Shown: piece after piece, positions 11,547 through 43,030 of the stretch
How positions within the stretch are numbered: position 1 is the first letter of the stretch
Layout: every line of letters begins with the position of its first letter
Assembly: GCA_028287785.1 (NCBI GenBank)
Contig: JAQBOZ010000028.1
Location: 186,001 to 250,000, forward strand
Origin: Chlorobiota bacterium
Lineage (GTDB): Bacteria > Bacteroidota > Ignavibacteria > OLB7
DNA length: 64,000 nucleotides
Direction of reading: 5' to 3'
The notes under the pieces: generated by a model
Databases searched by the model: none
What the model saw: only the letters and a program-made list of their open reading frames with translations
Told to the model about the DNA's origin: nothing
Program-made: the position numbers and the translations under genes

Positions 11547-12320
11547 ATGCCCGAGAACATCATCGTAACCGCCCACGATGGCTTTGTAGCCACTGTGCAG
11601 CTGAACCGTCCCAAGGTGCTGAACGCGCTGAACCTCCAGTTGATGATGGAGCTGGTGGAGGCGCTCGAAACGCTCGATGCCGATCCCGATATCCGCTGCA
11701 TCGTGATCCACGGCAGCGAGCGGGCGTTTGCGGCCGGGGCCGATATCACGGAGATGGCCGGCGCAACGGCCACCGAGATGCTCCGGCGCGATCAGTTTAC
11801 GCGGTGGGACAGAATCCGCCGGGTGAAGACGCCGATCATCGCCGCGGTCTCCGGGGTGGCGCTGGGCGGCGGATGCGAGCTGGTGATGATCTGCGATATG
11901 ATCGTCGCGAGCGAGACGGCGCGGTTCGGACAGCCGGAAATCAACATCGGGGTGATGCCCGGCGCCGGCGGCACCCAGCGCCTGACGCGCGCGGTGGGAA
12001 AGGCCCTGGCGATGGAGATGGTCCTGACCGGACGGATGATCACCGCGGAGGAGGCAAAGGCCGCGGGGCTTATCAACAGGGTTGTGCCGGTGGAGTTCTA
12101 TCTGGAATCCGCCATGAAGCTGGCCCGCGAAGTGGCCGCCCGCCCGCCGATCGCCGCGAAGCTGGCGAAGGAGTCGGTGCTGAAATCGTTCGACACCACC
12201 ATCAACGACGGGCTGGAGTTCGAGCGGAAGAATTTCTATCTCCTCTTCGCGACCGACGACATGAAGGAGGGAATGGCCGCGTTCCTCGAAAAGCGGAAGC
12301 CGGAGTGGAAGGGACAGTAG
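11547..12320 (+). CDS. Enoyl-CoA hydratase (crotonase family)
   Basis: 257 aa cytoplasmic enzyme hydrating trans-2-enoyl-CoA to 3-hydroxyacyl-CoA. Oxyanion-hole segments SERAFAAGADITEM and SGVALGGGCELVMICDM are present. Both catalytic glutamates of canonical hydratases are in place: the Glu of GGGCE and that of GQPEINIGVMPGAGGTQR. The end (FATDDMKEGMAAFLEKRKPEW) matches mitochondrial short-chain hydratase and PaaF-type enzymes closely. It starts a co-directional trio with an isomerase-like paralogue and a 3-hydroxyacyl-CoA dehydrogenase, fitting beta-oxidation or the lower phenylacetate route. Confidence 0.93.
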   Translation: MPENIIVTAHDGFVATVQLNRPKVLNALNLQLMMELVEALETLDADPDIRCIVIHGSERAFAAGADITEMAGATATEMLRRDQFTRWDRIRRVKTPIIAAVSGVALGGGCELVMICDMIVASETARFGQPEINIGVMPGAGGTQRLTRAVGKALAMEMVLTGRMITAEEAKAAGLINRVVPVEFYLESAMKLAREVAARPPIAAKLAKESVLKSFDTTINDGLEFERKNFYLLFATDDMKEGMAAFLEKRKPEWKGQ

Positions 12321-12388: not shown

Positions 12389-13174
12389 ATGACCTTCGAA
12401 ACGCTTCTCTATCAGCTTGAATCGGGCGTCCTGACGCTCACGCTGAACCGACCGGAAAGCTACAACGCCTGCAACGAACAGCTTACGACCGATCTGATGG
12501 CCGCGCTCAGGGAGGCCGAAAAGGACCCCGCCGTGCGCGCCATCATTCTGACCGGCGCCGGCAGGGCATTCTGCTCCGGCCAGGACCTGAAGGATGCCCC
12601 CGCTCCCGGAGCCAAGCGCTCGCTGGCCGATTCCCTCCAGCGACGCTACAACCCGATCATCCGCAAGCTGACCACCATCCCGAAGCCGATCATCGCGGCG
12701 CTGAACGGCGTCGCGGCGGGGGCCGGCTGCTCGCTGGCGCTGGCGTGCGATCTCCGCATCGCGGCGGAGGGGGCATCGCTCCTCCAGGCGTTCGTCAATA
12801 TCGGCCTGGTGCCTGATTCTGGCTCATCGTACTTCCTGGCGCGGATGGTCGGCTATTCGCGCGCGTTCGAGATAGCCACGCTCGGCGAGAAGATCCCGGC
12901 AGCGCAGGCGCTGGCGCTTGGCCTGGTCAACAGAGTGGTTCCGGCGGAATCGCTGATGGAGGAGGCGCGTTCGATGGCGACGCGATACGCGGCCGGGCCA
13001 ACCAGGGCATACGGCTACATCAAGAAGATGCTCCACCGCGCCGAGCACACATCGCTGGATGACGCGCTGGACTACGAGGTCTTCATGCAGGAAGCCGCCG
13101 GCCGCACCAGCGATTACGGCGAAGGGGTGAAGGCATTCGTGGAGAAGCGGAAGGCGGCGTTCACGGGGGAGTAA
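12389..13174 (+). CDS. PaaG-like enoyl-CoA hydratase/isomerase
   Basis: 261 aa crotonase-fold protein. The first oxyanion segment is GAGRAFCSGQDLKD and the second is GVAAGAGCSLALACDLRIA. The position of the first hydratase glutamate is Ser (GCS), while FVNIGLVPDSGSSYFLARMVG carries the Asp typical of PaaG, the 1,2-epoxyphenylacetyl-CoA isomerase / enoyl-CoA isomerase. The C-terminus (YGEGVKAFVEKRKAAF) is standard. It lies 68 nt after the hydratase and 28 nt before the dehydrogenase. With no paaABCE or paaK in view, a general enoyl-CoA isomerase role is equally possible. Confidence 0.88.
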   Translation: MTFETLLYQLESGVLTLTLNRPESYNACNEQLTTDLMAALREAEKDPAVRAIILTGAGRAFCSGQDLKDAPAPGAKRSLADSLQRRYNPIIRKLTTIPKPIIAALNGVAAGAGCSLALACDLRIAAEGASLLQAFVNIGLVPDSGSSYFLARMVGYSRAFEIATLGEKIPAAQALALGLVNRVVPAESLMEEARSMATRYAAGPTRAYGYIKKMLHRAEHTSLDDALDYEVFMQEAAGRTSDYGEGVKAFVEKRKAAFTGE

Positions 13175-13202: not shown

Positions 13203-14063
13203 ATGACAACTGATTCCACTTCCGGCCCGGCGCTCTTCGGCGTCTGCGGGGCCGGCACAATGGGCTCCGGCATCGCCTACGCCGCGGCGCTCGCCGGCTA
13301 TACGGTTCGGCTGTACGATATCGGCGAGGAGCAGATCCGCCGGGGCGCCGATCAGATCGCGCGATTTCTTCAGGGGAGCATCGACCGGGGAAAGCTGACG
13401 GCGGAGGCGGCGGATGAGATCCGGAGCCGCGTGGCGACAACGCTCGCGCTGGAGGATTTCGCCGGGGCGGAGATCGTCGTGGAGGCGGCAATCGAGCGGC
13501 TCGATCTGAAGCAGGATCTGTTTGGAAGGCTGGAGGCGATCGTGCCGGAGAGCGCCATCCTCGCCAGCAACACATCATCGCTCCCCATCACCGCCATCGG
13601 CGCACGGCTGGCCCATCCGGGGAGGATGGTGGGGATGCACTTCTTCAACCCGGCGCATATCATGAAGCTGGTGGAGGTGATCGAGGGATATCGGACATCG
13701 GCGGAGACGATGGAGCGGACGGCGGAGATCGCGCGGCGGATGGGCAAGACGCCGGTGCGGGCCAGGGACACCCCCGGCTTTATCGTCAACCGTGTGGCGC
13801 GCAATTTCTACGGCGAGGCGTTCAGAATCGTTGGGGAGGGAGCCGCGACGTACGAGCAGGTGGACCGCTGCATGAAGGCGGTCGGGTTCAGGATGGGGCC
13901 GTTCGAGCTGATGGATCTGATCGGCATCGATGTCAACTTCGCGGTAACCGAATCGGTCTACGAGCAGTATTTCAACGAAGCGCGATTCCGTCCGCATCTG
14001 ATTCAGCGGAAGATGGTGGAGTCGGGACTGCTCGGGAAGAAATCGGGAAAGGGATTTTACTAA
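13203..14063 (+). CDS. 3-hydroxyacyl-CoA dehydrogenase (PaaH/Hbd type)
   Basis: 286 aa NAD-dependent dehydrogenase oxidising 3-hydroxyacyl-CoA to 3-ketoacyl-CoA. The Rossmann motif CGAGTMGSGIAYAAALAGY is at the N-terminus. SNTSSLPIT and the catalytic-His segment MHFFNPAHIMKLVEVI follow, then TPGFIVNRV and the C-terminal helical domain ending GLLGKKSGKGFY. It is a single-domain enzyme, not the FadB fusion. It completes the hydratase-isomerase-dehydrogenase trio. A thiolase would be needed next and is not in the window. Confidence 0.94.
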   Translation: MTTDSTSGPALFGVCGAGTMGSGIAYAAALAGYTVRLYDIGEEQIRRGADQIARFLQGSIDRGKLTAEAADEIRSRVATTLALEDFAGAEIVVEAAIERLDLKQDLFGRLEAIVPESAILASNTSSLPITAIGARLAHPGRMVGMHFFNPAHIMKLVEVIEGYRTSAETMERTAEIARRMGKTPVRARDTPGFIVNRVARNFYGEAFRIVGEGAATYEQVDRCMKAVGFRMGPFELMDLIGIDVNFAVTESVYEQYFNEARFRPHLIQRKMVESGLLGKKSGKGFY

Positions 14064-14168: not shown

Positions 14169-15083
14169 CTATCTCACTTCCACCGGCCGCACAACCATGA
14201 TGCCGGTGTGCTTGGAAACGCTCGCCAGATAGACGCTCAGCTCATCATCCAGCGTCACCTGCTTCTTGGTGAGCGAAGCGTGGAGGAATCTGAGGAGGCC
14301 GGCATCATCGCGGTAGCAGAGCCCCGTGTGGGAGCAGTCGATACCGTTGATCGTGGTGGTGATGCCGATGATATCGCCGGTCTGGAGCTTCGGCTCGATC
14401 GACTTCACCTTATCCTTGGGCACATAGTACATGGTGCGGCTGTTGATGGACCGCTCCACCTCCGCGATCACCGGCACCAGCTTCGGGTTCGCCTTCAACT
14501 GCTTGTAGGCATCGGGATGGGTGCTCATAAAGTTCACCGGGTTGGTGAACCGGACAGCGCCCGGAAGCTCGCGGGTGATGTTCCGCACCACATGCTTCGC
14601 CTCGTTGTCGTAGAACCAGTCGGAAGTGTAATGGAGGCGCGATGTATAGTCGGTCATCCTGCCGCCGCGATATCGCGTGTAGGTAACCTGCGCCATCAGA
14701 GCGGCGGGGGTTGCATCGCCCCGTTTGATCGACCGGGCCAGCCCCAGGGCGCTCTCGAAGAACGTCACGCAGTCCAGCCCGAGCAGGTTCACCGAGCAGA
14801 CCTCGTGATCATCGAACAGCTCCAGCGTGGAGCCCACATACGGCGTTCCGCGCATCTCCAGGCCGATCTTCCCGATCAGCTCCCCGATCGGCAGCGACTT
14901 CCACTTCCCCTCCTCCGCCAGCTTCGTGATCTTCATAAACGCCGCCTGGCCGGTGAAGTTCTTCGGATCGCTGTCGCGCGGGGCGCGCGCCATGCCGGCT
15001 CCCGGAATCAGCGAGGGGATCGCCAGCGCTCCAAGCGTCACCAGCGACGTTCGTTTCAGGAAATCTCTACGATTCATATCCAT
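14169..15083 (-). CDS. DUF1460 family protein (N-acetylmuramoyl-L-alanine amidase-like)
   Basis: 304 aa from ATG 15083, which follows GGAGAA by about six bases; longer open sequence upstream is probably not translated. The N-terminus MNRRDFLKRTSLVTLGALAIP looks like a Tat signal. DUF1460 proteins are NlpC/P60-like cysteine hydrolases of cell-wall peptides or structurally related amidases. The presumed catalytic Cys is in GLDCVTFFES and the His in DCSHTGLCYR. Near the end, FLHASLTKKQVTLDDELSVYL is typical. It should act in the periplasm on peptidoglycan fragments. The next minus-strand gene upstream is a lipoprotein 67 nt away, possibly co-transcribed. Confidence 0.85.
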   Translation of the reverse strand: MDMNRRDFLKRTSLVTLGALAIPSLIPGAGMARAPRDSDPKNFTGQAAFMKITKLAEEGKWKSLPIGELIGKIGLEMRGTPYVGSTLELFDDHEVCSVNLLGLDCVTFFESALGLARSIKRGDATPAALMAQVTYTRYRGGRMTDYTSRLHYTSDWFYDNEAKHVVRNITRELPGAVRFTNPVNFMSTHPDAYKQLKANPKLVPVIAEVERSINSRTMYYVPKDKVKSIEPKLQTGDIIGITTTINGIDCSHTGLCYRDDAGLLRFLHASLTKKQVTLDDELSVYLASVSKHTGIMVVRPVEVR

Positions 15084-15150
15084 CGGTTCTCCAGGGAGTG
15101 TATTGTTCGAAATCGATTGCAACGGAGGGAGCGGCTCATCGGGCGAACGA

Positions 15151-15957
15151 TCAGTTCGCGATCCGCACGGTGATGACATTGCTTTTCACCAGTTGTTGCG
15201 ACGCCACCAGCACATCGCCGATATCATCCTTCATCCCCACGGTGATCTCCACCGAATCGCGCGCCGCGTTCCACTTCCGCTCCTTGACGGGGAGCGCGTC
15301 CAGATAGTTGAGCGTGGTGTAGGATACATCGTAGCGAAGCCGGAGCGAGTCACCGAGATTGGGATCGCGCTGGTACGACGCCGCGCGAAGCTCCTTGCTC
15401 CGATCGGAATACAGCGTCGGGTTCAACTCGGCCTGAAGATAGTATTCGGGAACCTCGGTAGGCGTGGAGCAGAGCCACCGCCGGGGGATGATCCCGCGAA
15501 GCACTACTTCCTTCCCCTTCGGAAGCCGGAAGAATCTGAGACGGGCGTCCTCCCGCTCCACCAGATCGTTGTACTGGATCTGCCGCGCAACCCGCACCGG
15601 GCCGCCGCTCACGTAGAAGAGCCGCCACGGATAGAGTTTAATGTTCTCCCCGTCAAGCTCGTTGGAAATGGGGATGTAGATATCCCGCGCGCCGTTGTTG
15701 GCAATCTCGATCCCGACCTCGGTCCCGTCCTCGCAACGGGCGGGGACATCCCCTCCGGTCAGCCGCACCACGACGCTATCCCCCGGAACGCTGCTCGCGC
15801 GGAGATTGGTGAAGTTCCAGGTGGAGTACCTGATGGTGCGGCAGCAGACAAACGGGCTCTCCGAGGAGACGGCATAGCTCACCACCTGGGGCGACGGCGT
15901 GCATGCCGATATGATCAGCAGCAGAAGGCACGGAAGGTAACGGGAGGATTTCATCAT
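15151..15957 (-). CDS. Lipoprotein of unknown function
   Basis: 268 aa from ATG 15957 (MMKSSRYLPCLLLLIISAC). The lipobox LIISAC gives Cys at about residue 19. An in-frame upstream start would add an unlikely basic leader. The mature part includes SPFVCCRTIRYSTWNFTNL with adjacent Cys, DLVEREDARLRFFRLPKGKEVVL and a DVSYTTLNYLDALPVKERK segment. It reads as beta-rich with no family I can name. It lies between the DUF1460 gene and the FN3 lipoprotein array on the same strand. Confidence 0.72.
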   Translation of the reverse strand: MMKSSRYLPCLLLLIISACTPSPQVVSYAVSSESPFVCCRTIRYSTWNFTNLRASSVPGDSVVVRLTGGDVPARCEDGTEVGIEIANNGARDIYIPISNELDGENIKLYPWRLFYVSGGPVRVARQIQYNDLVEREDARLRFFRLPKGKEVVLRGIIPRRWLCSTPTEVPEYYLQAELNPTLYSDRSKELRAASYQRDPNLGDSLRLRYDVSYTTLNYLDALPVKERKWNAARDSVEITVGMKDDIGDVLVASQQLVKSNVITVRIAN

Positions 15958-16057
15958 GTGCAAAAATACAAGAAGGATGGAACCACCGGCGTGGCGGCCC
16001 CATCCTTCGACAAACATACTGGTGATAGATCGGCTTCCGAAGCCCGCGAACCGGCTC

Positions 16058-17552
16058 TCAGCGCCGCGTCCGCGCCACCGGCCCGCCGCCGAACGATACG
16101 CCGAATGTCCCGGCGTACGGAAGGTTCGGGGTCGGCTGATAGGAGATCACGATGTCGAGATATCGATTCGGATATGTCCCCTGAAGCAGCGCCCCTCCGG
16201 CGCTCGCGATAAAGACCCGCGCATAGTGATAGCTCCCCTCCACCCCGGTTCTGACGTAGAACCCCATCCCCTGCGAAGCGTTGACCGGCATGGTGAACGC
16301 GCTGACGTTGCCGGACGGAGCGATCTGCTGGTCCAGCGGCGTCGAGCTGTACCATGTATCGATCCCCGCCGCCATGTAGGACATTTTGGAGATATAGACG
16401 GTGGAGTCGAAATCCCCCTCCCCCAGATATCCCGGCAGGCCGAACGCCGGGCCGATATCGAAGGTGGTGGGCGTTCCGGCGGGAACCCAGAGCGCAAGCT
16501 GCACCGAGGCCGGATCTCCGGGGTTCTTCGCCTTTACCCGCCGGGGTCCGCCGAGCGATGAATCGATCGTAAGGCCGCTGCCGTAGGGGGACGACTCCTC
16601 GTACATCCGAAGACTGGTGGTCCCGGAAGGCTCGTTGACATAGCGCGTGGCGGTTGCCCATCGGACCGAGATGGCCGCGGAACGCCCCACGCCCCGCGAC
16701 GCCGCAACCTGGAAGGTGTAGAGCTTCCCGGATTGAAGGTTCCCCACCGTCATCGATGAATCGGTGGTGACGGCGGTCATGCTGTCCGTGACGCCGGCGG
16801 AGCGCCAGATCAGCGTATAGCTGATGGCACCCGTATCGGCGCCGGGAGTCCAGGCAAGGCGGATGGCCGTATCGCTGATCGAGCTGGCGCGAAGATCGGA
16901 CGGCGCGCTCACCTTCAGGCCGTTCCACGTTGCGGTGACGGGGGATGAGAGGAGATCGCCGTTGGCGGCCCTGAGCCAGAAGGTATAGCTGTTGGCCGAG
17001 TTGAGCCCGGGAATGCCGATGGCGCTGGCCGATGACGGGACGGCAACATAGCCGGAATCGCCGCCGGGAATCTTCCATGAGGCAAGATAGCCGGTAAGCA
17101 CCGGATCGGTCGACGCAATCCATGTCAGCCGCGCGGTGGCCGGATCGGTGAACATCGCCAGCAGATTTTTCGGCGGCCCTACCAGACGCCACTGCACCGT
17201 GACCGGCGGCGAGAAGAGCGTATCGCGCCGGGCGGTGAGGGAGAACGTATAGGTTATCCCTGTCTTCAGATTGCTGACACGGAGAGCCGTGGGAGATGCG
17301 GGGAGATCGAGCGAATCGGTCGATCCGCCGGCCGGGCTCCAGACGATGCGATAGCCGGTGATGCCGGCGGAATCGACCGGTGCCGTCCACCGCAGGTCGA
17401 CCGTGGAGTCATTGACGGCGGTGGCATGCAGATCACGTGCGGCGCCGGGCGCCTTCAGCGTTGCGTTGCCGGCGGGATCATCCTTGCATCCGCTGCCGGC
17501 CAGAGCGATGACGCCGGCCAGGATGCCGGTGAACAGATACCTGATCTTCACG
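16058..17552 (-). CDS. FN3-repeat lipoprotein 1 (three FN3 domains plus shared C-terminal domain)
   Basis: About 497 aa. A GTG at 17552 is chosen because GGAGG lies eight bases upstream; the ATG at 17570 has none. The signal ends ALAGSGC, a lipobox variant with Gly at -3. Three fibronectin type III-like repeats follow (DLHATAVNDSTVDLRWTAP.., NLLAMFTDPATARLTW.., DLRASSISDTAIRLAWTPG..), each about 90 residues. The last 200 residues are a conserved domain shared with the next three genes (RMYEESSPYGSGLTID, GFYVRTGVEGSYHYARVFI, LLQGTYPNRY, TPNLPYA). It is likely periplasmic or surface anchored; function unknown. Confidence 0.82.
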
Positions 17553-17837
17553 ATGTAATCCTCCAACATTCTGTAGATGTGTGAGCGTACCGGAGAGCGC
17601 CGGTTGGAATCCGCGGGGAGATCTGGACGGGACGTGCGATAACGTGGCTGGCGTTTGCCCGCAGGCAGGAGAACGCTGCGCGAAGATATGAAAGCGGAAT
17701 GGTTATGCGGCTGTATATCCACCGGTTACTGGTGATACACCGGCATCAGCCCTGGAACCCCGATGGCGACATGGGATGTTACGTCACTGGTTGAAGGATT
17801 TCCGACGGGGAGATCTTCAAGGCTTCCCGCCATGCGA

Positions 17838-18806
17838 TTACGGCTGGAAAGGCGCCCTGGCGTTCGCCGTCGGCTCCCCCCTTCCGGCGGCCCTCGCATA
17901 GGGAAGATTGGGGGTCGGCTGATAGGATATCTCAAGTTCCACAAATCGGTTCGGCGGGTTTCCCTGAAGAAGCACGCCGTTGAGGTTCACGATGAAGACG
18001 CGGGCATAATGATAACTCCCCGCGCGTCCCGTGCGAACATAGAATCCCTGCCCCATGCTGTCCGGCTGAAGCGTCGGAAGCGTGTAGGCCTTCTGATTCC
18101 CATCCGGATCGATCAGCCGGTCGATCGGGCTGAAGGAGTACCAGGCATTGAGGCCGGGAACCGGCTCGGTGGCGCGGGAGATGAAGATCGTGGAGTCCAC
18201 GGCGTACTGCGTCCGGTAGGAACTGAACGCATAGGCCGGCCCTATCTTGAACGTCGAGGTATCCTCCCGGACGGTGTAGAGCGCAAGCTGTACCCGGTCG
18301 GCATCGGAGGAGAGCCTCAGATCCACGTTACGCGGCCCGCCGCGGATGGTATCGATCACAAGGCCGCTCCCCACGTTCGAGCCGGTTTCGTACAGCCTGA
18401 TGGGGTTGGTCGATGCCTCGGTGATATAATGCCGCGCGGTGGCCCAGATCACGGTCCTGGTGGAACCGGGAATCAGCGTGAGGATAGTGCCATCCCTGTA
18501 ATTGCTCGCCGAGAAACCATACGCCTCGCCCGGCCGCAGGCCGCTGACCAGAACGGTTGTATCCGCCTGGAAGACGGTGCCGCTATCGCTCCGCGCGTTT
18601 ATGCCTTCCCAGTGCAGGCCGTAGATCACCCCCGACTCCGTGGCTCCCTTCCACCGCAGTCGCACGGATGTCTCGCTGATCGACGACGCCTCGATCCCCT
18701 CGGATGTTCCGCCAGGATTGCTGGTGGGACTATCCAGATCGTTGACCGAACATCCGGCAATGACAATTCCGAGGGAAAGGATAGCGAGGAGAGTCCTCAA
18801 GACCAT
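17838..18806 (-). CDS. FN3-repeat lipoprotein 2 (one FN3 domain plus shared C-terminal domain)
   Basis: 322 aa from ATG 18806 (MVLRTLLAILSLGIVIAGC), a clean lipoprotein signal with lipobox VIAGC. One FN3-like repeat (IEASSISETSVRLRWKGA to STRTVIWATARHY) is followed by the family domain: PIRLYETGSNVGSGLVID, VQLALYT, AWYSFSPIDRLIDPDGN, GFYVRTGRAGSYHYARVFI, LLQGNPPNRF, TPNLPYA. It is the most divergent copy in the middle (FKIGPAYAFSSYRT in place of the IVEYKNSDNF stretch). Longer in-frame sequence upstream of the start lacks a ribosome site. Function unknown. Confidence 0.82.
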   Translation of the reverse strand: MVLRTLLAILSLGIVIAGCSVNDLDSPTSNPGGTSEGIEASSISETSVRLRWKGATESGVIYGLHWEGINARSDSGTVFQADTTVLVSGLRPGEAYGFSASNYRDGTILTLIPGSTRTVIWATARHYITEASTNPIRLYETGSNVGSGLVIDTIRGGPRNVDLRLSSDADRVQLALYTVREDTSTFKIGPAYAFSSYRTQYAVDSTIFISRATEPVPGLNAWYSFSPIDRLIDPDGNQKAYTLPTLQPDSMGQGFYVRTGRAGSYHYARVFIVNLNGVLLQGNPPNRFVELEISYQPTPNLPYARAAGRGEPTANARAPFQP

Positions 18807-19081
18807 AACGATGATTTCCGCAATGCAAGTCGAACCGCAGTAGATCGGAGGGATGGCCGAGCCCCGTCGTGGTCCGCCGACGGGTACAGATTTATGAACC
18901 ATTCGCCCTTGAATGTAACACCGAACGGGGCCGAATCGCGACCCAATCCCGTTACGTAATGTGAGCAGACGCATCGCCCCCATTCAATACTCTTCGGGAA
19001 GCAACATTCCTTCCTGGGCCCATAAAACGACGGATACCGGAGTGTCCGCCCTGCTCTTCCGTTCAATCGGTGCCGGCGAAT

Positions 19082-20320
19082 CTATCGACGGACCTGCGAA
19101 CCCGCCACGGCCGGCGTGGAATCCCATCCGGGGAACGCCCTGGCATAGGGAATGTTCGCGATGCTCTGATATGATAGCTCCAATTCCACGTATCTGTCGG
19201 GCGCGTTTCCCTGGAGCAGCATGCCGTTGCCGCTCCTGATAAATACACGGACAAAGTGATAATCGCCCGGAGTCCCGGTACGCACGAAGAAACCTCTGCC
19301 AGGAGCGCTCGCCATCGGAATCGTAAAGGCACGGAGGTTCCCGTCGTTGGGAATTCTCTTATCGATGGGACCGGAGACAAGCCACGCATCAAGGCTTGAA
19401 GCGGCATAGATCGAATCGGAGATAAATGTGTTCCGGTCGAAGTTATCGGAGTTCTTGTACTCGACTATGGAATAGCTCGCGCCGATAATGAAGCTGTTGC
19501 CGAGATTGCCGTTCGTATACATCGCCAGTTGCACATTCCCCACCGCGCCATTCCCGGTGCTGATCGTGGCCGGACCTCCTCTGCCGGGATCGAGCACAAG
19601 GCCGCTCCCCCCAACCGCGGATTGCGTTTCATAGAGCCGGATCGGGGTGGTGGTTCCATACCGCGCCGCGCCGGTCCAGACGATCGACGCGGGGACCGAT
19701 ATGACCCCGGCACGAACCGCATGGATGTAGAATACGTAGCTCTCCCCCGCCCTCAGATCGCTGACAGTGATGCTGGAGGATGTCGTGTTGGCGATCGATC
19801 CACTGTCGCCGGAAACAACCGACTTCCATGCCGCCCTGTAGGTAATGGCTCCGGTATCGACCTGGGGAGTCCAGCGCAGGGCAACGGCGGTGGGGGAGAT
19901 CGAGGAGGCCATCAATCCCAGCACCGGCAGTGGGCCAACCAGCGGCACAACCACGGTCGTTCCACCCCATAGAAGCGTCGCCTTCGACGAGAGGAGCGCG
20001 CCGCGCCGGGTTGCAACAGCAAACCCGTAGGGGGTTCCGGGCGTAATGCCGGTGAGGTTGTAACGGGTCGGCACGGCGGAAACATCGGCCGAATCGAGCG
20101 ATGTCGCGCTTGTCCACCAGACTCGATATCCGGTGATATTCGCGCTGTCGGCCGGAGCATCCCACATAAGGCTGGCTGATGTGCTCCCCACGGCTGAGAC
20201 TTGAAGGTTGATGGGAGGAGACGATGGTACGTCGGGCGCGATGATATCGCTCTGACATCCGGCGATAAGGGCAACCGCCGAAGCGAGGAGCATGGTCAGC
20301 ACGATCTTCCTCAATTCCAT
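19082..20320 (-). CDS. FN3-repeat lipoprotein 3 (two FN3 domains plus shared C-terminal domain)
   Basis: 412 aa. The lipoprotein signal MELRKIVLTMLLASAVALIAGC has lipobox LIAGC. Two FN3-like repeats (INLQVSAVGSTSASLMWDAP.., LGLMASSISPTAVALRWTP..) precede the family domain. That domain contains YSIVEYKNSDNFDRNTFISD and IYAASSLDAW, almost identical to the same part of copy 4, then GFFVRTGTPGDYHFVRVFI and LLQGNAPDRYVELELSYQ. The near identity to copy 4 in the centre of the domain suggests recent duplication or gene conversion. Function unknown. Confidence 0.85.
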   Translation of the reverse strand: MELRKIVLTMLLASAVALIAGCQSDIIAPDVPSSPPINLQVSAVGSTSASLMWDAPADSANITGYRVWWTSATSLDSADVSAVPTRYNLTGITPGTPYGFAVATRRGALLSSKATLLWGGTTVVVPLVGPLPVLGLMASSISPTAVALRWTPQVDTGAITYRAAWKSVVSGDSGSIANTTSSSITVSDLRAGESYVFYIHAVRAGVISVPASIVWTGAARYGTTTPIRLYETQSAVGGSGLVLDPGRGGPATISTGNGAVGNVQLAMYTNGNLGNSFIIGASYSIVEYKNSDNFDRNTFISDSIYAASSLDAWLVSGPIDKRIPNDGNLRAFTIPMASAPGRGFFVRTGTPGDYHFVRVFIRSGNGMLLQGNAPDRYVELELSYQSIANIPYARAFPGWDSTPAVAGSQVRR

Positions 20321-20468
20321 AGATACGCTTCCGTGTGATAGTGATCAGGACAATCGCTTCGGTTGCGGCTGGTGCTACCGGCGGGTCAGGCCTTCGCGAC
20401 CGGGCATCGGATGGGACAATCGTCGCCGCCATGACACGGCAACATCGCCGATATCATATCGGAGGGAT

Positions 20469-20501
20469 AAAAAAAAGGCGGAAGCTTCTGCAGCCTCCGC
20501 C
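20469..20501 (-). terminator. Rho-independent terminator after FN3 lipoprotein 4
   Basis: On the minus strand, GGCGGAGGCT pairs with AGCTTCCGCC (one G-U) and is followed by eight T (A run 20469-20476 on the plus strand). It starts 26 nt after the stop of the last array gene at 20527. It would separate copy 4 from copy 3. Confidence 0.88.
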
Positions 20502-20526
20502 CTGATGGGATTATGATACCCCGCTC

Positions 20527-21477
20527 TTAGTTGCTTGCACGATGCGAGGCCGCGACGCCCGGCGTCTCAGGATAACCTGCAACGCGCTTCGCGTACGGAA
20601 GATTCGGCGTGTTCTGATAGGAGATCACGAGATCCACGTAGCGATTCGGGGACGTTCCCTGAAGAAGGGCACCACCGACGTTCTGGATGAAGACACGGGC
20701 ATAATGATAGCTGCCCGAAACGCCGGTGCGGACATAGAAGCCCTCGCCGAGCGTGGTGTTGTCGGCACGCGTGAAGGCGCGCAGGTTGCCATCGGTCGGG
20801 ATGTGGGTGTCGATCGAGCTCGAGCTGTACCATGCGTCCATGCTGGAAGCAGCATAGATGGAGTCGGAGATGAAGGTGTTCTGATCGAAGTTATCGGAGT
20901 TCTTGTACTCCACGATCGAGAAACCGGTTCCGATGATGAAGTTGCTTCCGGTGCCCGTGGTATAAAGTGCGAGCTGAACGCTGCCCGGGTTGCCGGTCTT
21001 CACGCTGACAGCCGCGGGTGAACCGGCGGCATCGATCGTAAAGCCGCTCGGGTTGGAGGATGCGGTCTCATACACACGAAGGCTCGTGGTGCCACCGTAA
21101 CGCTGAGCGCCGGCCCAACGAACCGTGGTGACGGTAGAGGAAACGCCGCTGCGAACAGCATACACGGAGAAGGTATATGCCTTGCCAGAGCTGAGGCCGG
21201 TCGCGGTGTAGGTGGTCGCCGAGGTGGTCGCCGAACCGCTGTCCGCGGCTGCGTCACCAAGCCATGCCACGCGATAGGTGATGGTCCCGCTATCGACGGG
21301 AGCGGTCCACTGAAGTGCAACCGACGTCGGGGTGAGGGAATTAGCACCAACCTTGCTCACGGGCAGGGGAGCATTGCCGGTCGTACCAGGGGTAACAGGA
21401 TTTTCATTACAACCCACGGCGACAAGGCCGAGTGAGACGGCAACGAAGCCGCTCAACAAAAGATTTCCGAGTTTCAT
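20527..21477 (-). CDS. FN3-repeat lipoprotein 4 (one FN3 domain plus shared C-terminal domain)
   Basis: 316 aa from ATG 21477, which follows GGAGAAG closely; the in-frame ATG at 21495 lies upstream of that ribosome site. The signal MKLGNLLLSGFVAVSLGLVAVGC has lipobox VAVGC. A single FN3-like repeat (VGANSLTPTSVALQWTAP to VSSTVTTVRWAGA) leads into the family domain (SLRVYETASSNPSGFTID, FSIVEYKNSDNFDQNTFISD, DAWYSSSSIDTHIPTDGNL, GFYVRTGVSGSYHYARVFI, TPNLPYAKR). It has its own strong terminator and a long AT-rich upstream region, so it may be the most highly expressed copy. Function unknown. Confidence 0.86.
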   Translation of the reverse strand: MKLGNLLLSGFVAVSLGLVAVGCNENPVTPGTTGNAPLPVSKVGANSLTPTSVALQWTAPVDSGTITYRVAWLGDAAADSGSATTSATTYTATGLSSGKAYTFSVYAVRSGVSSTVTTVRWAGAQRYGGTTSLRVYETASSNPSGFTIDAAGSPAAVSVKTGNPGSVQLALYTTGTGSNFIIGTGFSIVEYKNSDNFDQNTFISDSIYAASSMDAWYSSSSIDTHIPTDGNLRAFTRADNTTLGEGFYVRTGVSGSYHYARVFIQNVGGALLQGTSPNRYVDLVISYQNTPNLPYAKRVAGYPETPGVAASHRASN

Positions 21478-21563
21478 TTTCTTCTCCACGTTCATTAGTG
21501 TGTGAGACCTTAACCCCCTCCGGCTCATGCCGTTGGGTGTGTCGGTGTTAATCTATTCAAAAT

Positions 21564-21791: not shown

Positions 21792-22355
21792 TCAGGCGCC
21801 CCGCGGCATCCAGGGATGCTCCTGAACATCGGCGGCCTGATTCACCGCGCGGGCCAGCACGAAAAGGAAATCGCTCAGCCGGTTCAGATACTGCATCGGC
21901 ATCACCCCCACTTCCGGCTCCTCATGGATGAGCATCACCACCGAGCGTTCCCCCCGGCGACATACCGTGCGGGCCAGATGGAGAGCGGCTCCGGCGGGTG
22001 ATCCCCCCGGCAGGATAAAGTTCTTCAACGGGGGCAGCCCCGCCTCAAGCGCGTCAATTGCGCGCTCAAGACACTCTATTTCCGCGACTGTAACACGCGG
22101 AAGAGAATAATTTTTCATCGCCCCCTGCGGGGTCGCAAGATCGGCTCCAAGGATGAAAAGATGCTCCTGAACGGTCGCCAGAAGCCCATCGTGCTCCGGT
22201 GTGAGGCCGGCGGCGCGAGCCACGCCAACAAGGCTGTTAAGCTCATCGACGGTTCCATAGCTCTCGATCCTCACGGAATCCTTCGCCACCCGCCGTCCGC
22301 CAAACAGCCCGGTGGTGCCGTCGTCTCCGGTCTTCGTATAGATCTTGTCGGCCAT
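21792..22355 (-). CDS. Cob(I)alamin adenosyltransferase, PduO type
   Basis: 187 aa. ATP:cob(I)alamin adenosyltransferase making adenosylcobalamin, usually as a trimer of five-helix bundles. The diagnostic N-terminal loop KIYTKTGDDGTTGLFGGRR binds ATP and SYGTVDELNSLVG follows. The C-terminal signature LARTVCRRGERSVV is intact. Full length for the family. No cobalamin-dependent mutase or B12 genes lie next to it and I see no cobalamin riboswitch upstream. It points to use of an adenosylcobalamin enzyme, such as methylmalonyl-CoA mutase or class II ribonucleotide reductase, elsewhere in the genome. Confidence 0.95.
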   Translation of the reverse strand: MADKIYTKTGDDGTTGLFGGRRVAKDSVRIESYGTVDELNSLVGVARAAGLTPEHDGLLATVQEHLFILGADLATPQGAMKNYSLPRVTVAEIECLERAIDALEAGLPPLKNFILPGGSPAGAALHLARTVCRRGERSVVMLIHEEPEVGVMPMQYLNRLSDFLFVLARAVNQAADVQEHPWMPRGA

Positions 22356-22805: not shown

Positions 22806-23612
22806 ATGCCGTTCAAAAATCTATTGATGGTTGGTGATATCGTCGGAGAGCCGGGGCTTGAGACGCTTCGCAAACACCTCCCCCCGCTTATCGAACAGTA
22901 CGCCGCCGATTTCGTCATCGTCAACGGCGAGAATACCTATGAGGGCAAGGGCCTGCGTCCCGCCGACGCCGACGCCATCTTCAAGAGCGGCGCTCATGTG
23001 ATCACCTCCGGCAACCATGTCTGGGAACGATGGCAGTCCAAGGATGTCCTTATCAACAACAGAAATGTCCTCCGCCCGCTCAACTATCCGCGCGAAAACG
23101 TCGGCTACGGGTATACGGTCTTCACGCTGCCGGATGGCACGAAGATCGGCGTGATCAACCTCCAGGGTCGCACATTCCTTCCGCCGATCGACTGCCCGTT
23201 CCACGCCGCGGACTGGGCCATCGGGCGGATCGAACATGATACGCGCTGCATCGTCGTCGACTTTCACGCCGAGGCCACCGCCGAGAAGATGGCGATGGGA
23301 TGGTATCTGGACGGACGGGTCAGCGCGGTGGTCGGCACCCACACGCATGTGCAGACCAACGACGCCCGCATACTCCCCGGCGGCACCGCCTTCCTCACGG
23401 ATGTCGGCATGACCGGCCCGTACGACTCCGTGATCGGCATGAAGAAGGAGGTGGCAATCCGTCGCTTCCTGACCCAGACGCCCCACAAGTTCGAGATGGG
23501 ACAGGGCGATGGCCGGCTCTCCGCGGCCTTTATCAGAATCGACACGACGACCGGGAAGGCCCATGATATCGAGGCGATATCAGCCCCTGAGTTTGTCCGC
23601 AGCAGAAGCTGA
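22806..23612 (+). CDS. YmdB-like metallophosphoesterase (TIGR00282 family)
   Basis: 268 aa from ATG 22806 (MPFKNLLMVGDIVGEPG); upstream in-frame sequence is not protein-like. Metal ligands are in VGDIVGEPG, FVIVNGENTYEGKGL, ITSGNHVWERW, VVDFHAEATAEK and VVGTHTHVQTND, the standard order of the family. YmdB-type enzymes hydrolyse 2',3'-cyclic nucleotides and act as cytoplasmic regulators; they form dimers or tetramers with two metal ions. FLTDVGMTGPYDSVIGM near the end is also typical. It is 46 nt upstream of the subtilase gene, but the functions are unrelated. Confidence 0.93.
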   Translation: MPFKNLLMVGDIVGEPGLETLRKHLPPLIEQYAADFVIVNGENTYEGKGLRPADADAIFKSGAHVITSGNHVWERWQSKDVLINNRNVLRPLNYPRENVGYGYTVFTLPDGTKIGVINLQGRTFLPPIDCPFHAADWAIGRIEHDTRCIVVDFHAEATAEKMAMGWYLDGRVSAVVGTHTHVQTNDARILPGGTAFLTDVGMTGPYDSVIGMKKEVAIRRFLTQTPHKFEMGQGDGRLSAAFIRIDTTTGKAHDIEAISAPEFVRSRS

Positions 23613-23658
23613 ACCCAGCCGTCACGCGTCCGGCAGCGCGAGGGAATTACTTCAGGAT

Positions 23659-26600
23659 ATGAACAGATCATCAATGATTATGAACAAGCATTACAGACTG
23701 ATCCTGAGCGCGTTCGGAACATCTCTCCTCTTCCTTGCCTCGCGCAGCCCGCTGGCCGCCCAGTCGCCGATCGAGAAGAGCGAGGGGAGAAGCAGCAACG
23801 CCGCCGAACAGGCACGCATCCCCATCGCCAGCGCGAAATATCAGGCGCTTATCACGTATGGCGTGGTTCGCGATCGCGCCAACGGCGAGGAGGCGATCGG
23901 CCACGCTCTCTACGTCAAGGTCCGCCCCGGATACTTCTACAACCCGGCGGCGGAGTTCCCGGCAGTGGCGGCGCGGGCCGGCCTTCCGGTGGCCGCCGCG
24001 TCGCCGATGGCGCTTACCACCATGCAGCCGGACGCAAAAGTCGCCAGCCGCATGCGTGCGATGTCCGCGGGGCAGCAGGAGCGGGCGGCCGTGGCGCAGG
24101 AGGATCTCCGGCGGATCATCGAGGTATACTACTCGCCCGAGCTTACGCCACGCGAGGCGATCGCCCGATTACGGAAGCTCCCCCAGATCGAATATGCCGA
24201 GCCGATCTTCATCGCGCACGCGCTGAGCCCATCGCTTCCAAATGACTCGCTTGTGCTGCAACAGCCCTACCTGGACGCGGTGAAGCTCCCGGAGGCATGG
24301 GAGGTCTGGAAGGGGGATACCAACATGGTGATCGGCATCGTCGATGTCGGCATCGATATGACGCATGAGGATCTGGCCCCGAATATCAAGGAGAATCCCG
24401 GCGAGGCCGGCCCGGACGGCCACGGTGGCCTGAAGCAGAGCAATGGAATCGATGATGACAGGAACGGCGTCGTGGATGACTGGCGCGGCGCCAACCTCCT
24501 CTGGCAACTTGATGATTCCCCCCCCGGTGATACACGCGGGAACTCGCACGGAACCCACGTTGCCGGCTATGCGGCGGCGGCCACGAACAACAAAATCGGG
24601 ATAGCGGGATCGGCATATCGCTGCAAATTCTTCCCCGTGAAGGTCGGCCGCGCCGATGATACCGAGGGACGACTCCTCCAGCCGTACGAGGGGGTGATCT
24701 ACTGCGCGAAGCGCGGGTTTCAGGTGATCAACTGCAGCTTCGGCATGAGCAATTACTCGCAGGCCACGCAGGATATGATCACCGACCTGACGATGACGTA
24801 CGGCTGCGCCATCGTTGCTGCGGCCGGCAACAGCGCCATCTACGACTTCCGTTTCCCGGCGGGATACGATCACGTCCTCGGCGTCGGCGCCATCGAGGTC
24901 GATCCGGCCAGCACATTCAGGACATCGTGGGGCGAACAGGTGGATGTTTCCGCCCCCGGCACCGGCTACACGACCGATATCAACAACACCTACGGCAGCG
25001 GAGGAGCGGCAACGTCGTTCACGTCGCCGGTGGTTGCCGGCGCGCTGGCGCTGGTGCGGAGCAGGTTCCCGGATCTTACCCCCGATCAGGCGGAGGCCCA
25101 TATCAGGCTTACCGCCGACCCCATCCCTCTTCCTCCGGACGTTGCGTACAAGACCAGGCTCACCGGCTACGGCAGGCTGAACGCGTATCGCGCAGTCTCC
25201 ACCGATCCCTTCTCCCATCCCGCCATCGTGATAGATTCCACGTGGCTGGCGGATGAGGCCGGGAACCCCGCCGAACGGATCTCGGTGGGCGGGCATGGAC
25301 AGCTCCACGTCAGGCTCCGGAATCTGCTGGGAAGCGCGACCAACGTGAAGGTGCGCGCCACGCTCTATGTCACCGATGACCGCTACATGGCCGATGACAG
25401 CGCCATCGTCGATATCGCCGACACCATCCTTTCAACCCCCTCCCTCGCATCGGGACAGGTGAAGGTGCTCGATGGCGGAATACCGTTCACCGTCAAGCTC
25501 CCGGCCGGCGACCGGGTCAGAATCCGTTTCGATATCACGGCCGACGACTACACCGATTATCAGTACCGGCGGATTCTGATCTATCTCCCCTACATGACCG
25601 CGCGGACCCCGAAGATCACCATGTCGCTTACCGACAGGGGACGGCTCGGGTTCGAGGATTACCCGATCAACACTGTTGGCGATGGCTTTCAGTACCAGGG
25701 GGTGCCGTTCCTTTATGAAGGGGGGGTGATGATCGCCAGCGACTCCGAGCATCTGCTCAGCAACATCCGCGGCGGCAATGGATCGATGCAGCAGGAGGAC
25801 TTCGCCACCATCGAGTATCCGAATCAGGCCAACCGTTTCACCCTGGGGCTGAGCGACAGCGCGGCCGGGGATCGGAGGATCGGCCTGGAGATGCGGATGC
25901 GGTTCGTGACTGTCGATTCGATACCGAACGCGATCGGCATCGAGCTGCGGACCAGAAACATGAGCAGCAAGCGGATCGATTCGCTGAGGGTGGCGATGTT
26001 CGCGGACTGGGATCTGGACAGCAGCTCCAGCGGACAGGGGCTGGAATACGTGGAGTCCCCCGGCATGCCGGTCACGTTTTACGGAAAGGCCACGTCGCAA
26101 TCGGACTTCTTCCTGATGCACGGCCTGGCCGCTCCCGCGCCGATCCCGATCTTCTATGCAATCGACAACACGCATCCTCCGCTCAGTCTGTACGAGAACT
26201 TCTCCCAGGCCAAGAAATGGCTTACGCTGAGCAACGGCATCGCCAACCGGCAGGTGCCGCCGGTGCCGGACAGCAGCGACATCAGCATTGTGATAGGGCA
26301 TACGATAGCGGGCTTCGCGGCCGGCGCCGAGGACACATCGCTCTTCGTGATCGGCGTCTCGGGGCTGGCGCAGGAGGCACGCGATGCCATGCAGTCGCTG
26401 GCCGGCCGGCAGATCGGGTCACGAGCCGGCGTCGGGATGGAGCCGGGCACGATGATTTCGCTCCTCGGCGTTTCGCAGACGGACGGCGTTGCAACTATTC
26501 ACATTGGACGTGCCTCGGGTGATGCTAGATTGCGCGTCTTCGATATCGCGGGGCGTCAGTTGGCCGACCTTACCAACCGTCTCGCGCGTTCAGGAACCTC

Positions 26601-26703
26601 CACTATCATCTTCGACGGCTCCGCCCTCCCCAGCGGTGTCTACTACGTTCAGCTTGTATCATCCCTTGGAACGGAATCCCGGAGCATCGTGCTGATGCAC
26701 TGA
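23659..26703 (+). CDS. Secreted subtilisin-family serine protease with type IX sorting tail
   Basis: About 1014 aa from ATG 23659 (23674 and 23680 are alternatives); the signal peptide ends PLAAQ. An N-terminal inhibitor-like propeptide (residues about 60-200) precedes the S8 domain. Catalytic Asp is in IGIVDVGIDMTHEDL (about 227), His in NSHGTHVAGYAA (about 295) and Ser in AATSFTSPVVAGALAL (about 453), all intact. A DGHGG..NGIDDDRNGVVDDW calcium-type loop lies between Asp and His. A long beta-rich region follows, and the C-terminus (LRVFDIAGRQLADL to SGVYYVQLVSS) is a type IX sorting domain. It is probably a cell-surface or released protease that degrades external protein. Confidence 0.92.
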   Translation: MNRSSMIMNKHYRLILSAFGTSLLFLASRSPLAAQSPIEKSEGRSSNAAEQARIPIASAKYQALITYGVVRDRANGEEAIGHALYVKVRPGYFYNPAAEFPAVAARAGLPVAAASPMALTTMQPDAKVASRMRAMSAGQQERAAVAQEDLRRIIEVYYSPELTPREAIARLRKLPQIEYAEPIFIAHALSPSLPNDSLVLQQPYLDAVKLPEAWEVWKGDTNMVIGIVDVGIDMTHEDLAPNIKENPGEAGPDGHGGLKQSNGIDDDRNGVVDDWRGANLLWQLDDSPPGDTRGNSHGTHVAGYAAAATNNKIGIAGSAYRCKFFPVKVGRADDTEGRLLQPYEGVIYCAKRGFQVINCSFGMSNYSQATQDMITDLTMTYGCAIVAAAGNSAIYDFRFPAGYDHVLGVGAIEVDPASTFRTSWGEQVDVSAPGTGYTTDINNTYGSGGAATSFTSPVVAGALALVRSRFPDLTPDQAEAHIRLTADPIPLPPDVAYKTRLTGYGRLNAYRAVSTDPFSHPAIVIDSTWLADEAGNPAERISVGGHGQLHVRLRNLLGSATNVKVRATLYVTDDRYMADDSAIVDIADTILSTPSLASGQVKVLDGGIPFTVKLPAGDRVRIRFDITADDYTDYQYRRILIYLPYMTARTPKITMSLTDRGRLGFEDYPINTVGDGFQYQGVPFLYEGGVMIASDSEHLLSNIRGGNGSMQQEDFATIEYPNQANRFTLGLSDSAAGDRRIGLEMRMRFVTVDSIPNAIGIELRTRNMSSKRIDSLRVAMFADWDLDSSSSGQGLEYVESPGMPVTFYGKATSQSDFFLMHGLAAPAPIPIFYAIDNTHPPLSLYENFSQAKKWLTLSNGIANRQVPPVPDSSDISIVIGHTIAGFAAGAEDTSLFVIGVSGLAQEARDAMQSLAGRQIGSRAGVGMEPGTMISLLGVSQTDGVATIHIGRASGDARLRVFDIAGRQLADLTNRLARSGTSTIIFDGSALPSGVYYVQLVSSLGTESRSIVLMH

Positions 26704-42872: not shown

Positions 42873-43030
42873 GTTCTTCCGCTAACGCCGTGGATAACGT
42901 CGTTCAACCGTCTGATAATGACAGCCATGCGGGAAGCCGCACCGCAAATCAGCGTTCTTCCGCTAACGCCGTGGATAACGTCGTTCAACCGTCTGATAAT
43001 GGCAGCCATGCGGAAAGCCGCACCGCAAAT
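42873..43030. repeat. Two tandem copies of an 81-bp repeat
   Basis: Copies start at 42873 and 42954 (GTTCTTCCGCTAACGCCGTG) and end with ACCGCAAAT, differing at about two positions over 77 bases. Each contains the AACGCCG..GAT.ACGT.GTTCAA motif (42884-42908 and 42965-42989) that recurs at 11346-11363 (reverse) and 63432-63456. Confidence 0.85.

Follow-up and report, generated by a model that had tools for sequence, protein, structure and literature searches.

Proteins of the HmuY family share an all-beta 'right hand' fold and a lipoprotein signal, and hmuY lies next to the gene of a TonB-dependent receptor (hmuYR); most members, but not all, hold haem iron by an axial His/Met pair. Among them are HmuY of P. 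gingivalis (structure 3h8t) and BfrB of B. fragilis (HmuY-Bf-2, structure 8b6a). According to PMC12106395, BfrB is a HmuY-family protein that lacks the iron-ligating His and Met; its haem binding probably involves no coordination of the iron, metal-free porphyrin is preferred and two tyrosines are important, and BfrC binds neither haem nor metal-free porphyrin. A further described kind is DUF4466 (PF14725), with structure 4ei0 from P. merdae. Here we describe four genes, g1 to g4, on the minus strand within positions 16058-21528 of a 64,000-nucleotide stretch of a Chlorobiota bacterium genome (GCA_028287785.1, contig JAQBOZ010000028.1, positions 186,001 to 250,000; hereafter the window), each encoding a lipoprotein made of a fibronectin type III (FN3) stalk and a C-terminal head. 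We found that this head gene expanded from one to four in place. With a probability of about 0.5, we consider the products to be outer-membrane lipoproteins in which a lipid anchor and a spacer of one to three FN3 modules carry a divergent HmuY/DUF4466-like ligand-binding head.

The genes are numbered in the order of transcription, g1 being the first; a previous sequence-only reading of the same DNA counted them from the other end, so that its copy 1 is g4, copy 2 is g3, copy 3 is g2 and copy 4 is g1. Its description of four minus-strand lipoproteins with 3, 1, 2 and 1 FN3 repeats in copies 1 to 4 agrees with the open reading frames and with Pfam fn3 (PF00041), to which the stalks belong, the single stretch of copy 2 scoring 24.7 bits at a cut-off of 25. 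The stalk modules are thus ordinary FN3, and FN3 kinship is uninformative on the identity of the head. Using relatives' sequences, a scan of genome contigs gathered 47 head loci, where a prior scan without relatives had given none. In alignment A4, which includes the four window copies, an fn3 match (E up to 0.1) and a lipobox Cys are present in 47 of 47 rows, and an acidic residue at +2 or +3 in 42 of 47. In Bacteroidota, acidic residues are linked to surface export of lipoproteins. The lipobox Cys with the acidic position suggests outer-membrane, perhaps surface, lipoproteins.

The common C-terminal end was also predicted correctly, and we delimit it to about 180 residues. The four proteins align pairwise by BLASTP at 40-54% identity (E 5e-59 to 7e-99), the heads of the other three copies are 57, 45 and 52% identical to that of copy 4, and the motifs quoted earlier (GFYVRTG, SYHYARVFI, LLQG..PNRY, TPNLPYA) are present in the head alignment. 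A profile of the four heads had hits at these four places and nowhere else in the 4.75 Mb genome, and therefore the similarity is not limited to FN3. By sequence, the head has no named family, as had been proposed: Pfam at E up to 10 returned no row for the four window heads, PHROGs at the same limit returned two chance-level rows only (0.21 and 0.22), and NCBIfam returned rows for one of the four proteins, located in its FN3 part and far under the cut-offs. For DUF4466, Pfam gave no row with the four proteins (E up to 1) or with their heads (E up to 10). Among the papers listed in literature searches on Kapabacteria lipoproteins, on DUF4466 and on HmuY, FN3 and Ignavibacteria, none that names the family was met. 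The comparison of folds described below points to the HmuY/DUF4466 kind.

The head is not confined to this locus: within the class, 120 of 391 genomes (60 of 190 genera) have it, as do 5 of 5 genomes of the order, where the four genomes other than that of the window carry one copy each. Named relatives are, among others, metagenome-assembled genomes labelled Kapaibacterium/Kapabacteria, Ignavibacteria and Chloroherpeton. Of 395 genomes drawn from across the phylum, 36 matched, all of them the window's own genome or members of the same family or class; in a comparable draw of 385 genomes, Pfam HmuY was present in 129, other classes included, and HmuY proper was not found in the window species' own genome. 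Several frames of 360-480 residues in this second draw have two Pfam HmuY matches, and three class proteins (L089, L095, L096) seem, by eye, to have two HmuY-like domains per chain. Across the class the head gene is mostly single-copy, often within conserved gene orders, tandem pairs occurring elsewhere too (for example L039, L040 and L042). With about 290-340 residues, most of the member lipoproteins have space for one FN3.

The expansion is best seen against a genome of the same genus (G001), where the order is subtilase, YmdB, cobalamin adenosyltransferase, one head gene, the orthologue of the 15151-15957 lipoprotein and an AmiA-like gene, continuing with genes that match window positions 13203-14063, 12389-13174 and 11547-12320. 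Both genomes are thus colinear, with one head gene where the window has four. The side formed by subtilase, YmdB and adenosyltransferase is kept in 4 of 4 relatives, and the other side in 2 of 4. Since each of the four further genomes of the order has one copy at the same syntenic place, the head gene expanded from one to four in place in the window species, which bears out the proposal of a locally expanding family whose stalk varies while the head is fixed. In the tree, the window's four copies group with the same-genus copy in a single clade (96/96) that is unresolved inside. Likely, g1 is the parental copy, because it adjoins the conserved flank, has the shortest branch and is the best match for every relative's copy.

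Copies 3 and 4 had been described as nearly identical in the middle of the head and the others as divergent there. We confirmed this in a 30-column segment, where g1 and g2 share 28 of 30 residues (93%; about 51% over the remainder of the head) and where other pairs are 23-47% identical if the near-identical copies of G003 and G004 are excluded; between other copies, this segment is the most variable part of the head. Recent gene conversion was rejected because synonymous differences are plentiful: codons for the same amino acid are identical at 16 of 28 positions in the middle versus 33 of 81 elsewhere (Fisher p 0.19). The likeness may stem either from an old conversion or from a shared constraint.

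Regarding the fold, AlphaFold2 modelled full-length g1 from 47 sequences with a predicted local distance difference test score (pLDDT) of 83.8. As FN3 filled the list of the full-length fold search, the head was folded alone, from 50 sequences, with a pLDDT of 89.5 and a predicted template modelling score (pTM) of 0.88. VIA-align 2, run over Foldseek's top 1000 candidates only, placed chain B of 4ei0 (DUF4466) first, with Z 11.7, a root-mean-square deviation (rmsd) of 3.3 and 142 aligned residues over model positions 1-167; the head fits the second half of that chain, 172-333. Chain B of 8b6a (BfrB) follows with an end-to-end alignment (rmsd 3.8, 132 aligned, model 1-174) and Z 7.9, a value within the range typical of this program for unmatched models, and the third row drops to Z 4.3. 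Among these candidates, 3h8t and other HmuY structures are not listed. By sequence, 8b6a and 3h8t are kin in our analysis as well, as one HmuY-family protein of the class finds both. Like the HmuY family, the window proteins are lipoproteins, their modelled head is an all-beta domain of similar length, and a hairpin of the type V-R-T-x-x-G-x-Y-A-K is common to both; the heads differ by the added FN3 stalk, by a Pfam score under the cut-off and by having no conserved His/Met. DUF4466 is the best structural match and shows no sequence match to the heads; in class genomes, Pfam DUF4466 was found in 0 of 99, in a search where no control gave signal.

An independent pointer to HmuY comes from Pfam, whose HmuY model (PF14064) matched one of 47 members, L059, at full length with E 4.4e-4 (20.8 bits) and as head alone with E 8.3e-5 (23.2 bits), at the penultimate hairpin. 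The same hairpin is the centre of the hhalign matches between head and HmuY, which gave P 3.6e-4 and 2.4e-4 on 21-24 columns and 8.5e-4 with ten HmuY sequences, the control being at 0.2. Rank tests of HmuY scores between heads and other reading frames were significant and are given little weight because the rows are homologous and not independent. Of about 1000 shuffled heads scored with the same kind of profile, one reached 8.3 bits, exceeding all real heads except one (13.6). Together with the modest Z of BfrB, several results speak against the HmuY/DUF4466-like assignment. Foldseek against the PDB with the head had a best E of 0.03, which is noise, and PDB sequences searched with the head or with a 50-head profile gave nothing useful. 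None of the 47 members reaches the Pfam gathering threshold of 27 bits, so that Pfam membership is lacking, and the hhalign probability is 24-44% over a span little beyond one hairpin. No conserved His or Met was found in 50 heads (highest His column 18%, highest Met column 14%), whereas one column is 80% His in ten HmuY proteins of the class. None of the ten large neighbours scanned is a TonB receptor. Weighing both sides, we regard a HmuY-like fold of the modelled head as likely, supported but short of proof.

The negative Foldseek result and the weak sequence support would be expected if the head had a separate fold that resembles HmuY and DUF4466 through a chance beta arrangement. We hold this doubtful, given that the top two structural rows are both Bacteroidota proteins that align over the whole domain and score far above the third, and that the independent Pfam match of L059 leads to the same family. 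The sequence-only reading favoured adhesins or glycan-binding surface lipoproteins, in which FN3 stalks would hold out a head that binds sugars or surfaces, adhesion being tuned by the number of copies and the length of the stalk. Such a role is unlikely in our opinion: the lipid anchor, the variable length of the stalk and the local duplication agree with it, but no carbohydrate-binding module is among the best fold rows (from Foldseek candidates only), where the HmuY/DUF4466 kind appears instead, and a gene that is mostly single-copy and often has conserved neighbours class-wide is unlike a fast-changing adhesin; a function in housekeeping or nutrient supply would suit it no less well.

Another alternative arises from a small secreted protein: of the 45 head genes called outside the window, 28 are followed directly, in the same orientation, by its gene, with gaps of 9-64 bp except one of 329. 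Its resemblance to DUF6488 and to an OB-type model is weak, no Pfam family fits it with confidence (alignment A5), and it is present in 66 of 391 class genomes; the two-gene arrangement is conserved in many Kapabacteria/Ignavibacteria (loci L036-L082). In L066, L070 and L072 the partner itself is duplicated. Such tight association is what one would expect of an envelope complex of lipoprotein and OB-like partner without a small-molecule ligand, the partner having been lost or replaced in the window's order. However, the partner was not found in 5 of 5 genomes of this order, and the lipoprotein has nonetheless been kept and even multiplied, which makes a complex of this kind improbable to about the same degree as the adhesin. 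In other families of the class the lipoprotein may work together with this partner; the window species seems to manage without it.

Returning to lipoproteins with a HmuY/DUF4466-like head, the best reading of its history is that an ancestral gene with one FN3 and one head, beside the cobalamin adenosyltransferase gene, duplicated in place into four copies in the window species. Two of the copies have extra FN3 modules, probably inserted between the anchor and the head-proximal FN3. Head-proximal modules are 33-50% identical among themselves, and their identity to the added N-terminal modules is mostly lower, but a tree of the FN3 modules has no useful support. Ligand capture by the head would take place either in the periplasm or at the cell surface, and the copies may have drifted apart in the variable middle segment, which would overlap the pocket-forming part of HmuY by position only. 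Ligand capture is the most likely mechanism, although we put it forward tentatively, at somewhat below even odds; it follows from the precedent of BfrB, from heads with several conserved Tyr but no conserved His/Met, and from the ten large neighbours scanned, none of which is a TonB receptor. Haem binding through an axial His/Met pair is unlikely judging from these residues. By analogy with BfrB, the head could hold a flat ligand, such as a porphyrin, with no coordination of a metal. A broader proposal, which we consider quite unlikely, is that the heads constitute a class-wide, unnamed branch of HmuY-like receptors on FN3 stalks without a neighbouring TonB receptor, forming here a four-member panel with varied ligand preference and reach and elsewhere a two-gene unit whose OB-like partner would pass the ligand on.

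The features of the locus are collected in Table 1. The intergenic gaps within the array are about 206, 275 and 268 bp, and the regions upstream of g1 to g4, when compared, have no long similarity in common. To judge from the predicted hairpin 3' of it, g1 looks like a transcription unit of its own; the hairpins count for little because 6 terminator-like sites were present in the scanned stretch and 5.6 were expected by shuffling. In the window's order, the head gene is immediately preceded by the cobalamin adenosyltransferase gene, and the same holds at a distant Ignavibacteria locus (L045). A cobalamin link to the head genes was considered and, as Rfam gave no riboswitch or other match over the window, this adjacency is treated as old synteny. 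The subtilase of the conserved side (window 23509-26703, at the locus in all the relatives mentioned above) has a weak match to a type IX sorting tail. Elsewhere in the window, positions 42873-43030 hold two 81-bp tandem copies with 97% matches.

Table 1. Features of the head-gene array and its flanks, in window positions (ORF, open reading frame).
Feature	Position	Strand	Remark
g1 (copy 4), lipoprotein, 1 FN3 + head	20527..21477	-	ORF 20527-21528, lipobox start ~21477; adjoins conserved flank, shortest branch
g1 head	20572..21108	-	Predicted structure, folded alone (pLDDT 89.5, pTM 0.88)
g1 FN3	21127..21363	-	Pfam fn3
g2 (copy 3), lipoprotein, 2 FN3 + head	19082..20320	-	ORF 19082-20320, lipobox start ~20320
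g2 head	19127..19669	-	Head alignment
g3 (copy 2), lipoprotein, 1 weak FN3 + head	17838..18806	-	ORF 17838-18983, lipobox start ~18806
g3 head	17892..18437	-	Head alignment
g4 (copy 1), lipoprotein, 3 FN3 + head	16058..17569	-	ORF 16058-17722, lipobox start ~17569
g4 head	16103..16651	-	Head alignment
Predicted terminator-like hairpin behind g1	20475..20503	-	12 pairs, T-rich tail
Predicted terminator-like hairpin behind g4	15972..16008	-	16 pairs, T-rich tail
Cobalamin adenosyltransferase	21792..22355	-	Conserved flank in 5/5 order genomes and at distant locus L045
Lipoprotein without Pfam match	15151..15957	-	Other flank; 47% orthologue in same-genus genome
AmiA-like (PF07313) protein	14169..15179	-	Other flank; there in 2/4 relatives examined

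The four genes provide a clean example of a one-to-four expansion in place of a lipoprotein with a variable stalk. The likely fold of the head gives testable ligands for an unnamed lipoprotein family that is present in about one in three of the genera sampled from a little-studied class. Furthermore, if the link to HmuY is true, the HmuY kind would extend past the known haem systems into environmental bacteria.

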